From NCBI GenBank assembly GCA_025055675.1, contig JANWWT010000004.1, forward strand, positions 62,001-126,000: a stretch of DNA of 64,000 bases. Direction: 5' to 3'. This DNA comes from Pseudanabaenaceae cyanobacterium SKYG29 (GTDB taxonomy: Bacteria; Cyanobacteriota; Cyanobacteriia; Pseudanabaenales; Pseudanabaenaceae). Below the pieces are notes generated by a model. The model saw only the letters and a program-made list of their open reading frames with translations. It did no database searches and was not told the origin of the DNA. The position numbers were made by a program, and so were the translations under genes. Position 1 is the stretch's first letter. Every line of letters begins with the position of its first letter. Shown in pieces: positions 20,007-26,216 of this stretch.

Positions 20007-20300
20007 AGCAGTAACACAGACGCAACTCCCTGTATAGCATATATTTAACTGCCCTGCCACTTCAGAGCCGATCGTTTCCTCTCTAACCCACAGGCCCACC
20101 AGTTCCAATAAACACAAAAACTAAAATCCAGATTTTTACTTATAAAACTAGCTATACTTCCTAGAATAAAATCTATAGGATTTGTATTTAATAATATTTA
20201 ATTACAAATATAAACATAAAATTTTACAAATATATATACAAACTGTCTCTACAGTGGCTTATATTATATTTATAATTTGGGAATCTAAGCTAATAAAAAC
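20007..20300. other. AT-rich divergent intergenic region
   Basis: This 294 bp region between topA and the kinase gene is markedly AT-rich from about 20120 onwards, unlike its neighbours. It holds a small inverted repeat AAATC-tatag-GATTT near 20168 and several TATAAT-like boxes, any of which could drive the kinase/REC-RelE operon. No gene, tRNA or repeat element is recognised. Confidence 0.5.
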
Positions 20301-22244
20301 ATGCTTATTAGTAAAAGTCTTAATAATTTGGCAAGAACAACCAGTAATGTTAAAGCATGGATTATTGGTGGAGTAGTTTTTGTTACAGCCTTTACTGGAA
20401 TAGTTGCAGTTATGCCAGGTATTAGTCCAGTGCGGCGAGCATTTCGGGAATTCTTTATTAAAGTCATACCCAGGGTACAGACAGTGGATTTTAATATGCT
20501 ATTTCATATGCTCCCACCAGCTCTGTCCCAAGCCTCAGAGGGCAACTCTTTTGAAAAAATATTTTCTAATCCTCAAAAATATTACAAACAAGCAGAACGT
20601 CTCAAATCAATACTAGATAGCAACTATGGGGTTTTTAGTTTAGTAATTACTGACATTTCTACAGATTCTGTCCTAGATGAAACAAAAATTTTATACAAAA
20701 CTAAAAAGACCCGATCAAAAAATGTTTTAGATGAGGGTTATGTAGTCCACAGTGATTTAATTTTGTACCCCCAACCTAATTGTAATACTGCCAGTTACCC
20801 TAGTAGTAGGGCGAGAGACATAGAAATTAACTTAGATTGCCAGAGAATTATTCAATCAGCTGTCAAAGCAGGTGAGAGTAGAGTTATTGGCAAGGTTTAT
20901 TATATTAGGGGGAAACCACCAAATTTTTGGAGCAAGTTTTCTCAGTTCCTTACTAACTTCGCCAGTGATAGCGGTGGCTACGCCTTCATTCGAGGTAGTA
21001 TTTATTTTACTGCTGGCATGGGTGCGCTACTCTACTCTCTGTTCTATCTCTTCCTTAGGAGCTTATACACTAAAGAACTGGCCAGAGAATTAGCAGAGCA
21101 AAAGAGCATAACCCTAGAGTTTGAGAGAAGAGCGATCGAGCAGGAATTACAAAGGCAGTACCTAGAAGTGGAAAAAGCAGAAATACAGAAGAGAGCTATT
21201 TTGGAAGAGAGGAAGGTGCTAGAAGCAAATTTCAAGCGGCAGCGGTTAGAGGTGGAGAAAAGGGAGATACAAAAAAGAATTCTTGTGGAGCAGCTTAAGC
21301 GTAAGCAGATAGAATATGAAAAGAAAATAGCTGAAGAGAGAGCCAAGTTTCTAGAAGCCCAGAATAAGTTATTGAGAATGAAGGAGTTAGATGCAGCAAT
21401 CCGCTCAATTTTTGATGATGAGTTTGTTTCACCAACTGGTAATAAATTGCAGTTAATTCAAGAAGAGTACACCAACTTGTGTTTGCGGCTAAAAACCGAT
21501 GTGCAAAATATAAAGCACGATTTAAGTAAGGCTCCAATACTGCTTAACACAAATTACATTCCTGAGCAAATTGATAAATTAAAAGCAAGTATACACAACA
21601 ACATGATTGACCCTGATATTATTATAGAAACTCTGAGAGATATAGAACATAGCATAACTGTTATCAGTCAACTTACCGAAAATTTAGATAAGATAATCTC
21701 TACTGAACCTCAGTTATGCAAGTTGTCCGAACTTATACAAGTAGTTTACGATCGGGCGAAAGCAAGGTTACCAGAGGCAAATATAAAAGTCTTTTGTCAG
21801 AATTCATCCTCGGGTTGCTTAGGAGATTGTGACTGTAAAATCTCTATAAACCCCTGGCATTTTATGAGTATTCTCAAAAATATTATTGACAATGCTTACA
21901 AAGCTTGTGGTGCTAAGAGTAGACGTGTGCGTATCATCAACCGCAATAGTGGTAGTAGCCAGACTCAAAATACATACACACCACTAATTACCATTGGTTG
22001 CCGAATTGATGCTGCTGCTCAGGAGTGTAGCATTGCCATAGAAGATAATGGCCCTGGCATTCCTGAACATATGCTAGACAAGCTTTACCAGTGTCACGAA
22101 AGACTAAATAATACCAACGGAACACTCAATGGAAATGGTAGCATGATATGCTTTGCCTATTTAAAGTTTTGGGATGGCAAAGTGAAGGTCGAAAATTTAG
22201 CAGAAGGAGCAAGAGTAACTGTAAGTTTTCCAATATGTCAATAA
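20301..22244 (+). CDS. Membrane sensor histidine kinase with long coiled coil
   Basis: A 647-residue kinase. A first membrane span (about 19-38), an extracytoplasmic sensor region of some 185 residues and a second span (about 226-247) are followed by a Glu/Lys/Arg-rich coiled coil (about 250-360) containing two copies of RQxLEVEKxEIQKR. The catalytic part has a candidate phospho-His406 in KHDLSKAP, N-box NIIDNAYKAC (Asn527, Asn531), G1 box DNGPGIP (582-588) and a G2 box NGNGSM. The sensor region is not a family I recognise. The response regulator starts 19 bp downstream, so the pair is an operon. Composition is AT-rich relative to neighbours, hinting at transfer. Confidence 0.85.
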   Translation: MLISKSLNNLARTTSNVKAWIIGGVVFVTAFTGIVAVMPGISPVRRAFREFFIKVIPRVQTVDFNMLFHMLPPALSQASEGNSFEKIFSNPQKYYKQAERLKSILDSNYGVFSLVITDISTDSVLDETKILYKTKKTRSKNVLDEGYVVHSDLILYPQPNCNTASYPSSRARDIEINLDCQRIIQSAVKAGESRVIGKVYYIRGKPPNFWSKFSQFLTNFASDSGGYAFIRGSIYFTAGMGALLYSLFYLFLRSLYTKELARELAEQKSITLEFERRAIEQELQRQYLEVEKAEIQKRAILEERKVLEANFKRQRLEVEKREIQKRILVEQLKRKQIEYEKKIAEERAKFLEAQNKLLRMKELDAAIRSIFDDEFVSPTGNKLQLIQEEYTNLCLRLKTDVQNIKHDLSKAPILLNTNYIPEQIDKLKASIHNNMIDPDIIIETLRDIEHSITVISQLTENLDKIISTEPQLCKLSELIQVVYDRAKARLPEANIKVFCQNSSSGCLGDCDCKISINPWHFMSILKNIIDNAYKACGAKSRRVRIINRNSGSSQTQNTYTPLITIGCRIDAAAQECSIAIEDNGPGIPEHMLDKLYQCHERLNNTNGTLNGNGSMICFAYLKFWDGKVKVENLAEGARVTVSFPICQ

Positions 22245-22263
22245 TTTGATAGGGAGGTTAACT

Positions 22264-23265
22264 ATGGCTCACTTTTTGATTGTGGATGATGATCAGAGAA
22301 TCTGTCAAACTTGGCAGGGGTGGCTACTAAATGATGGTCATACCTGTGATTTTGCTTTCACTCTTGATAGTGCATTTAATTCCATTCTTGATAGTGAAGA
22401 AGGTATTCGCGAACCCTATGATTTAGTCCTCCTCGATCATAATCTGGATGGTAGTAATCTAGGTCTGGGAGTCCTTGATGCAGTGAGAGAAGCTGGTCTG
22501 TCTGATTGGTGCGAAAACCGAGTAGTGGTCATCACGGCATCCCACAATATGGCAATTGTACCTGAATATACTAAAAGGGGATCAATCGGTTACCTGGGTT
22601 ACCTGATCAAGCCTACTAACCGAGTGCAGTTCACAGCTACTATCACAAATGCTTTGCTGCGTCGCGAATTGTATGTAGAGAAAAAGGAGGACTGGGAGCA
22701 AGCAGTAAAACTTTTGGAAGACTTGCAATTACTGCCAGCGATCGAGGGCATGCAAAGAGAAGTAGAATCCCTCAGAGTCATCGAAGCTTACTACAATCAG
22801 CTCCTCAGGGATTTATGTGCTGCTGGCGGTAATGAAGCTAAAATTGCTGATAGCTACAAGAAGGCAAGTGCATCAATTAACAACAGTATTGTATCAATTT
22901 CTTCTATTCTTCCCTTCCTCAAACCCTTCAAGTTTACACAGGCATTTTGGAAGGATGTGGAATATGTGTTTTATCAGGATCGGATTAAGTTCCATGCCCT
23001 ACAAAGTTACCTAGCTCGTATTGGTAATAACCCTAATGCCTATAGGATAAAACACTTGGATGGCAGAGCTAATGGGCACTATGAGTACCGTACAGGTATT
23101 AGCTACCGTCTATACTTTCGCCGTGAAGGTGGCTTCATTGTTTTGGAGAGATTTGGTAATAAAAATGAGCAGAACCAAATTATTGATTTTCTTGCTAATA
23201 CTGGGGGCGGTGACATCATCAATGAAACAGATTTGGATTTGGATGCTTGCATAATCTTGAGGTAA
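22264..23265 (+). CDS. Response regulator fused to a RelE/ParE-like toxin domain
   Basis: 333 residues from the ATG at 22264, which has a GGGAGG ribosome site 7 bases upstream; a TTG start six codons earlier is less likely. Residues 3-130 form a receiver domain with the acidic triad Asp8-Asp10, phospho-acceptor Asp58 (LVLLDHNLDG), Thr91 and Lys116. A helical linker (about 135-230) follows. Residues about 235-312 read like a RelE/ParE/HigB toxin: helices, then AYRIKHLDGRANGHYEYRTG, SYRLYFRREGGFIVLERFGN, KNEQ, with Lys and Arg at positions where these RNases place catalytic or RNA-binding residues. No DNA-binding domain is present. The toxin-fold call is by pattern, not by search. Confidence 0.75.
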   Translation: MAHFLIVDDDQRICQTWQGWLLNDGHTCDFAFTLDSAFNSILDSEEGIREPYDLVLLDHNLDGSNLGLGVLDAVREAGLSDWCENRVVVITASHNMAIVPEYTKRGSIGYLGYLIKPTNRVQFTATITNALLRRELYVEKKEDWEQAVKLLEDLQLLPAIEGMQREVESLRVIEAYYNQLLRDLCAAGGNEAKIADSYKKASASINNSIVSISSILPFLKPFKFTQAFWKDVEYVFYQDRIKFHALQSYLARIGNNPNAYRIKHLDGRANGHYEYRTGISYRLYFRREGGFIVLERFGNKNEQNQIIDFLANTGGGDIINETDLDLDACIILR

Positions 23266-24681
<1,416 letters not shown>

Positions 24682-24731: not shown

Positions 24732-26216
24732 ATGTGGTCAGGGCTCCTGGGATTAGCACTGTTAGGCACTTGGGTTTGGCTATACTGGCGCTCACGGCGG
24801 GGGATAAAAGCAGAAGAACGCTACCGCTCGATCGTGGAGAATCAGCAAGAACTAATTATTTGTTGGTCAACCGCTGACAACAGAATCACCTACGCCAATG
24901 CTGCTACAAGAAAATTATTTCAGTGTGACAAAGAACCAGTAGAAAATAAAAGCATATTGGATTATATCTACAGCGAGGACAAAGAATGGGTAACACAAAA
25001 AATAAGTGCCCTTAGTTTATTAAGCCCGCACGTGAATATCAAGTGTCGTATTGTCCTACCCGATAAGCAAGTGCGTTGGCAAGTCTGGCAACTCTATCTG
25101 ACCACGACGCAAGAAGTACAGGGGGTAGGGAGGGATATTACAGAGCAAGTGTTAATTGAAGAAACCCTAGAAAAGTTCGAAAATCGCAGTCGTGCTCTCA
25201 TTGAGAGTATCCCTGATTCTATTTTTATCGTCAATCGAGAGGGTATTTTACTCGATATTCATTCCCGTCTACCCCTACCCTCCCAACCTGTAGTTTATCC
25301 CCATATTAGTAGTTTCCCCTGCTTTCTTGCCATTAGCGATCGTTTATTACGGCTGATTAAAATTGTCCTGACTATGCAACAAATCCAAACCTTAGAATTT
25401 AGTTATCCAGAGGGGGAAACCTACTATGAAATGCGGCTAGTGCCAACTGGGGAAGATGAAGTGACTATGATTGTTAGGGATGTCACTGATCGGAAACAGG
25501 CAGAAGCTATTCAATTAGCCCTACGCCAGGAGCAGGAGATTAATGAGCTGCAGCAACACTTCTTTGCTATGATTTCCCACGAATTCCGTACACCCTTGAA
25601 TGTCATGGCGATTGCGATTAGTTCCTTGGAAAATCACGAAATAATAGAGCAAAATCCCAAACTGCGGCGTAGTATTATGCGGATTAAGAATGCCTCCGAT
25701 CGTATTCTGGCGACAATAGATAATATTATTACCATCTATCAGATTAAGACTAACTTTTTTGTGCCTAACTGGCAGGTGATCTCGATTAATAGTCTTTGTC
25801 AAGACGTAATTGAGAAATTAAATATCTACAATCACCAGTCTATTAACTTCTACCCGGAGGAAAGTAATTCTTCTTTTATTAGTGACCCCCGCCTATTGAG
25901 TTGTATTTTGGAACAGCTCTTAACCAATGCCCTTAAATATTCCCAATCTGATGTGTTTATCAAAGCTGCGAGGCAGGCTAACACAGTTGAAATTACTGTG
26001 TCTGATCAGGGAATTGGCATTCCTGCAGGGGAAGTAAAACATATTTTTGAACCGTTCTTCCGGGGGAGCAACGTGCAAGGGATTCACGGTTCGGGCTTGG
26101 GTTTGAGTTTGGTGCAAAAGTGTGTAGAAATTTGTCAAGGCAAGATAGATGTCCTCAGCAATCCAGAGGGGGGCACCACGTTTAGGCTCAACTTCCCTCT
26201 CTCGCCTGCATTATGA
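24732..26216 (+). CDS. PAS-domain sensor histidine kinase
   Basis: A 494-residue kinase with one N-terminal membrane anchor (about residues 3-18), a PAS/PAC unit (about 28-140, ending VGRDITEQ), a second PAS-like unit (about 150-255, ending IVRDVTDRK), a HisKA domain with phospho-His283 in SHEFRTPL, and an HATPase_c domain (N-box EQLLTNALKYS, G1 DQGIGIP, G2 GSGLGLSLV). There is no extracytoplasmic loop of note, so it probably senses a cytoplasmic cue. No response regulator adjoins it. The stop overlaps the hydrolase start as ATGA, suggesting translational coupling. Confidence 0.93.
   Translation: MWSGLLGLALLGTWVWLYWRSRRGIKAEERYRSIVENQQELIICWSTADNRITYANAATRKLFQCDKEPVENKSILDYIYSEDKEWVTQKISALSLLSPHVNIKCRIVLPDKQVRWQVWQLYLTTTQEVQGVGRDITEQVLIEETLEKFENRSRALIESIPDSIFIVNREGILLDIHSRLPLPSQPVVYPHISSFPCFLAISDRLLRLIKIVLTMQQIQTLEFSYPEGETYYEMRLVPTGEDEVTMIVRDVTDRKQAEAIQLALRQEQEINELQQHFFAMISHEFRTPLNVMAIAISSLENHEIIEQNPKLRRSIMRIKNASDRILATIDNIITIYQIKTNFFVPNWQVISINSLCQDVIEKLNIYNHQSINFYPEESNSSFISDPRLLSCILEQLLTNALKYSQSDVFIKAARQANTVEITVSDQGIGIPAGEVKHIFEPFFRGSNVQGIHGSGLGLSLVQKCVEICQGKIDVLSNPEGGTTFRLNFPLSPAL

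Follow-up and report, generated by a model that had tools for sequence, protein, structure and literature searches.

A cyanobacterial sensor kinase paired with a response regulator that ends in a RelE-fold domain

The window considered here (64,000 nucleotides of contig JANWWT010000004.1 of Pseudanabaenaceae cyanobacterium SKYG29, numbered from its first letter) carries a two-gene signalling module, in which a membrane sensor histidine kinase is followed, after a spacing of 19 bp, by a response regulator whose C-terminal domain, judging from its predicted structure and from the profiles matched by its homologues, has the RelE/ParE (BECR) fold (Table 1).

Two genes in an AT-rich segment

The residues that mark a two-component system are complete in both proteins: the predicted phospho-accepting histidine and the ATP-binding boxes of the kinase (H406, N527, N531, DNGxGIP/GxG) are invariant in the eight kinases aligned, and D9, D58, T91 and K116 of the receiver are invariant among eight aligned homologues of the regulator. 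A preliminary description of this DNA, made from its letters, had pointed to an intact phosphorylation site (Asp58, Thr91, Lys116) and to the lack of any known output domain in the regulator, and both observations hold, Pfam detecting the receiver only. The sensor domain of the kinase has no relative in Pfam or in the PDB.

The AT-rich island noticed in that description is equally real, as the segment 20047-23620 has a GC content of 38.2% (the window averages 46.3%), the minimum among 303 sliding windows of 3.57 kb. In the two same-genus genomes compared (G001 and G002), DNA homology stops at 20046 and restarts at 23621 or 23646, and no convincing homologue of the kinase-regulator pair was found in either; the module was probably acquired horizontally. 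The genes topA and ilvC are located on different contigs in close relatives, so that their synteny cannot reveal an empty site. A second sensor histidine kinase is encoded downstream of ilvC (24732-26216).

The adjacent or fused antitoxin that characterizes a type II toxin-antitoxin module is missing from the pair, in line with the preliminary description: no antitoxin-like open reading frame (ORF) flanks the two genes, no ORF of at least 40 aa lies wholly inside 23266-23685, and no antitoxin domain was found in the pair by Pfam or NCBIfam scans.

Table 1. Features of the kinase-regulator module, in window coordinates
Feature	Position	Strand	Residues	Basis
AT-rich accessory segment with the two-gene module	20047-23620	none		lowest-GC 3.57-kb stretch; homology breakpoints against same-genus G001/G002
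Membrane sensor histidine kinase	20301-22244	+	647 aa	ORF; HATPase_c 1.1e-11; kinase family alignment
Predicted first transmembrane helix	20358-20414	+	20-38	hydropathy 2.22
Predicted periplasmic sensor domain	20469-21005	+	about 57-235	not in Pfam; common to other receptor proteins
Predicted second transmembrane helix	21000-21056	+	234-252	hydropathy 1.64
Charged, probably coiled-coil signalling stretch	21066-21380	+		sequence
Predicted phospho-acceptor, NIxHDxxKA motif	21516-21518	+	His406	invariant in 8 kinases
HATPase_c domain, DNGxGIP and GxG boxes	21861-22235	+	521-645	Pfam; alignment
Ribosome-binding site GGGAGG of the regulator gene	22252-22257	+		sequence; just upstream of the regulator ATG
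Response regulator with RelE-fold output	22264-23265	+	333 aa	ORF, alignment, AlphaFold
Receiver domain	22264-22653	+	1-130	Pfam Response_reg 1.3e-7 (residues 5-127)
Predicted phosphorylation site	22435-22437	+	Asp58	invariant
Helical linker	22654-22926	+	131-221	AlphaFold helices 120-139, 141-153, 157-187, 191-206, 212-219
RelE/ParE-fold output domain	22927-23208	+	222-315	Foldseek against PDB; Pfam/NCBIfam in homologues

The RelE fold and the family of pairs

In the AlphaFold model of the regulator (pLDDT 90), the C-terminal domain displays a RelE topology, and all 50 of the matches listed by Foldseek against the PDB belong to the RelE superfamily (best E 2.6e-5, target TM 0.71), as RelK, YoeB, YafQ, HigB, RelE and ParE proteins together with Cami1. 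The closest are the mRNases RelK, YoeB and YafQ, while ParE2 stands near the bottom of the matches listed. For the window copy taken alone, profile scores are weak and below threshold (Pfam HigB-like, E = 0.048; TIGR02385 RelE_StbE, 0.062), and a PDB search with the single domain sequence returned chance matches only. Its homologues give a clearer signal: the Aulosira protein exceeds the gathering score of Pfam ParE_toxin (7e-5; score 23.8, cut-off 23), HigB-like is matched at 7.9e-4 by the protein of G125, and other family members reach 1.7e-4 at best with RelE_StbE and a related RelE/ParE model. The RelE assignment, which the preliminary description had proposed, is secure on homologue profiles and structure, the window sequence by itself being insufficient. 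The genome sequences that score next against the domain profile are chiefly short ORFs, of which the readable ones are typical RelE/ParE toxins, one of them with an overlapping upstream gene in an antitoxin-like arrangement.

The same receiver-RelE fusion recurs beside kinases in other cyanobacteria, and was recovered when genome contigs were queried with an alignment, a single-sequence query having returned nothing. Ten loci in nine genomes, all cyanobacterial, carry the kinase with the receiver-RelE regulator: besides the window, they are found twice in G094 (Gloeomargaritales VI4D9), in G125, G352 and G050, on a plasmid of Aulosira laxa, and in Chlorogloea purpurea, Nostoc FACHB-892 and Tolypothrix FACHB-123. 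A convincing pair is present in 5 of the 390 cyanobacterial genomes sampled, and the kinase catalytic family in 6 of them, followed by such a regulator in all six cases. Weak genome matches in G207 and G144 were not taken as family members. Viral contigs searched with the regulator alignment and phage records searched with the sensor of the receptor family yielded no relatives, and the C-terminal domain matched phage sequences only weakly (E 0.5).

Across the family, the distances among kinases correlate with those among regulators (r = 0.83, Mantel p = 0.0016). Mean pairwise identity is higher in the RelE domain (56%) than in the receiver (47%) or the linker (44%). By these comparisons the two proteins, which the preliminary description had paired on the basis of their proximity, are a cognate pair diverging together. 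Insertion sequences interrupt three loci, namely the regulator in G050 and in a related pair of genome G079, and the kinase in one of the G094 copies. The Aulosira and Tolypothrix modules are closely related and have an upstream integrase in common, while their flanking defence systems differ; the module is mobile, one version travelling with an integrase.

One sensor, several outputs

The sensor half of the kinase (a transmembrane helix, some 180 residues and a second transmembrane helix; query, about residues 57-235) was searched among cyanobacterial genomes and occurs in 30 of 380 (E <= 0.01), mostly in proteins devoid of a kinase domain. Sixteen of these kinase-less proteins were examined: half (8/16) end in a NERD nuclease, three in a HicA toxin (down to 4.6e-15), three in a DUF2325-like domain (recognised by Pfam in two, and in the third from its resemblance to G079), one in a Gp49-type domain of the RelE superfamily (2.9e-10), and one in a Card1-like endonuclease (L083:9316-11283; E 9e-5, below the curated cut-off). 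On Synechococcus elongatus IITB plasmids, the sensor is joined directly to a ParE/RelE domain (Pfam 3.6e-4), this fusion resembling annotated RelE/ParE toxins at 1e-4. In G079 (L076:5286-9352), a kinase-regulator pair is split by an inserted transposase gene, beyond which a DUF2325-like output replaces RelE. The strongest argument for considering the RelE domain of the regulator as an effector is that one receptor occurs with so wide a choice of exchangeable toxin or nuclease ends.

The sensor-HicA fusions are encoded at L080:9352-11124, L081:8794-10617 and L086:8190-9818 (minus strand). No HicB-like gene was noticed beside those of L080 and L081, where antitoxins were not searched for. The sensor-ParE/RelE gene of the S. 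elongatus IITB3 plasmid (L140:3914-5362) adjoins HEPN, N6-methylase and GIY-YIG genes.

A phosphorelay-controlled output and its alternatives

The explanation that best accommodates the whole, and that is held with modest confidence, is a RelE-fold output controlled by a phosphorelay, probably for anti-phage or other emergency growth arrest. The membrane kinase would read an envelope or periplasmic cue, and His406 would hand phosphate on to Asp58 of the regulator, whose receiver, depending on its phosphorylation state, would decide whether the RelE-fold domain reaches its target. The likeliest target is the A-site of the ribosome with the mRNA it holds, and translation would then stop without a separate antitoxin. 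The change brought about by phosphorylation may be a dimerisation or a release of the linker, freeing the RelE domain for ribosomes. Toxicity and RNA cleavage would be properties of this domain, an external signal would trigger the relay, and phosphorylation may activate rather than restrain the output. The pair may then form the phosphorelay branch of a larger set of cyanobacterial receptors with exchangeable toxin or nuclease ends. A broader proposal, somewhat short of probable, is that one sensor with interchangeable RelE, HicA, NERD, Card1-like or DUF2325-like ends, reached directly or via a His-Asp phosphorelay, defines an undescribed, antitoxin-free family of immune or self-arrest systems in cyanobacteria. 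The preliminary description, which had envisaged a toxin fold tethered to a receiver that does the antitoxin's job, is as a whole partly supported.

Several observations weigh against this explanation. No defence gene adjoins the window's own copy, and several receptor-only relatives adjoin ordinary housekeeping genes. In its favour, the Nostoc copy adjoins the DISARM genes DrmA/B/C, the Tolypothrix copy DrmD/DrmMI, and the Aulosira copy a type I restriction-modification system and a GmrSD-type gene, but these neighbours were counted without a background control and their defence link is suggestive only. A G352 neighbour matches the defence kinase PD-T4-6, but this was put down to the general likeness of Ser/Thr kinases and not counted. 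A further objection is that the C-terminal tyrosine usual in RelE is absent, while a lysine replaces arginine at the R81 position, so that catalysis may be lost or altered. By residue equivalences read from the alignments, R282 (at the RelE R61 position) and K300 (a conservative change at R81) are invariant, as is R276, and the Glu295-Arg296 pair is both invariant and family-specific.

This mixed picture leaves room for a binding-only or a ParE-like role. Could the RelE fold, devoid of catalysis, be a phosphorylation-controlled module binding the ribosome, RNA or a partner protein, and adjusting translation or signalling without being toxic? The missing tyrosine, the lysine at R81 and the invariant, family-specific Glu-Arg pair would fit such a module, which is nevertheless considered unlikely given the strong conservation of the five residues named above, the intact-looking toxin or nuclease ends of sibling receptors, and the interruptions by insertion sequences, which suggest a cost. 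A poisoning of DNA gyrase once the receiver is phosphorylated is very unlikely: the Aulosira homologue does match Pfam ParE_toxin, a model that mixes mRNases and gyrase inhibitors (PMC11980606), but mRNases head the structural matches, with ParE2 ranked far below them among those listed. Nutrient sensing could also be meant, as three of the kinase loci are near phosphonate-binding-type proteins, the Chlorogloea and Nostoc copies being accompanied by PhnD-type periplasmic-binding proteins, and that of G352 by a Ser/Thr kinase carrying a PhnD-type domain. A purely physiological role, in which the module would slow growth on sensing a nutrient or stress (a phosphonate-like ligand, for instance) and would take no part in conflict, is rather unlikely in view of its patchy and mobile distribution, its DISARM and restriction neighbours, and the exchangeable toxin and nuclease ends. 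The PhnD-type genes near the module are located at L020:5214-8060, L027:3012-6245 and L026:6590-7498, twice with a Ser/Thr kinase (DUF4145 in L027).

The principle is not without relatives. Cami1, a CARF-RelE effector of type III CRISPR (PDB 8phb/8phj), is an mRNase in which a sensor domain gates an antitoxin-less RelE (PMC11229360); like the regulator, which it matches in Foldseek, it fuses a signal-receiving domain to a RelE-family domain without an antitoxin, but it is triggered by cyclic tetra-adenylate via CARF, whereas here the receiver would be fed by a membrane kinase. Among two-component immune systems the nearest is Detocs, a defensive system of three genes, of whose effectors the best described is a PNP domain that cleaves ATP (PMC11249213). 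In Detocs two-component proteins control an immune effector, as is proposed here, but it differs by its three genes and PNP from the present two genes, RelE fold and membrane sensor. A PADLOC scan of the pair gave no match, the presence of Detocs models in that release being unconfirmed. The type II toxins RelE, ParE, HigB and YoeB have the BECR fold in common with the domain described here, but are small, stand-alone and accompanied by an antitoxin (PMC11980606), whereas here a response regulator carries the domain as its output. ToxM/ToxR resembles the directly fused relatives in tying a BECR toxin to a membrane receptor-like protein (PMC11980606), with the difference that ToxM has an N-terminal toxin domain, a central transmembrane segment and an upstream ToxR antitoxin, while the toxin is here C-terminal without an antitoxin, or carried on a separate receiver. 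Gerdes 2025 (PMC11980606) catalogues multidomain BECR toxins and leaves out many for which there is no antitoxin; the terms 'response regulator' and 'histidine kinase' occur nowhere in its text. The earlier remark that no described system of this kind was known holds in that no published receiver-RelE protein or sensor-receptor family was found, most of the subscription literature being beyond the search, but is tempered by the precedents of Cami1 and of Detocs.

If the proposed mechanism is correct, a RelE toxin would be governed by a phosphorylation switch instead of an antitoxin, and a classical two-component system would exert direct post-translational control over translation. The receptor common to HicA, NERD, Card1-like and RelE ends points to cyanobacterial surveillance of a modular kind, which the Synechococcus elongatus plasmid version makes testable near a standard laboratory species.

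A nucleoside 2-deoxyribosyltransferase-like gene is found near all four loci of G094, G050 and G125 (L017:7028-7447, L018:3663-4091, L021:6477-6908 and L019:10304-10735) and is absent near the others; it is possibly a second effector.
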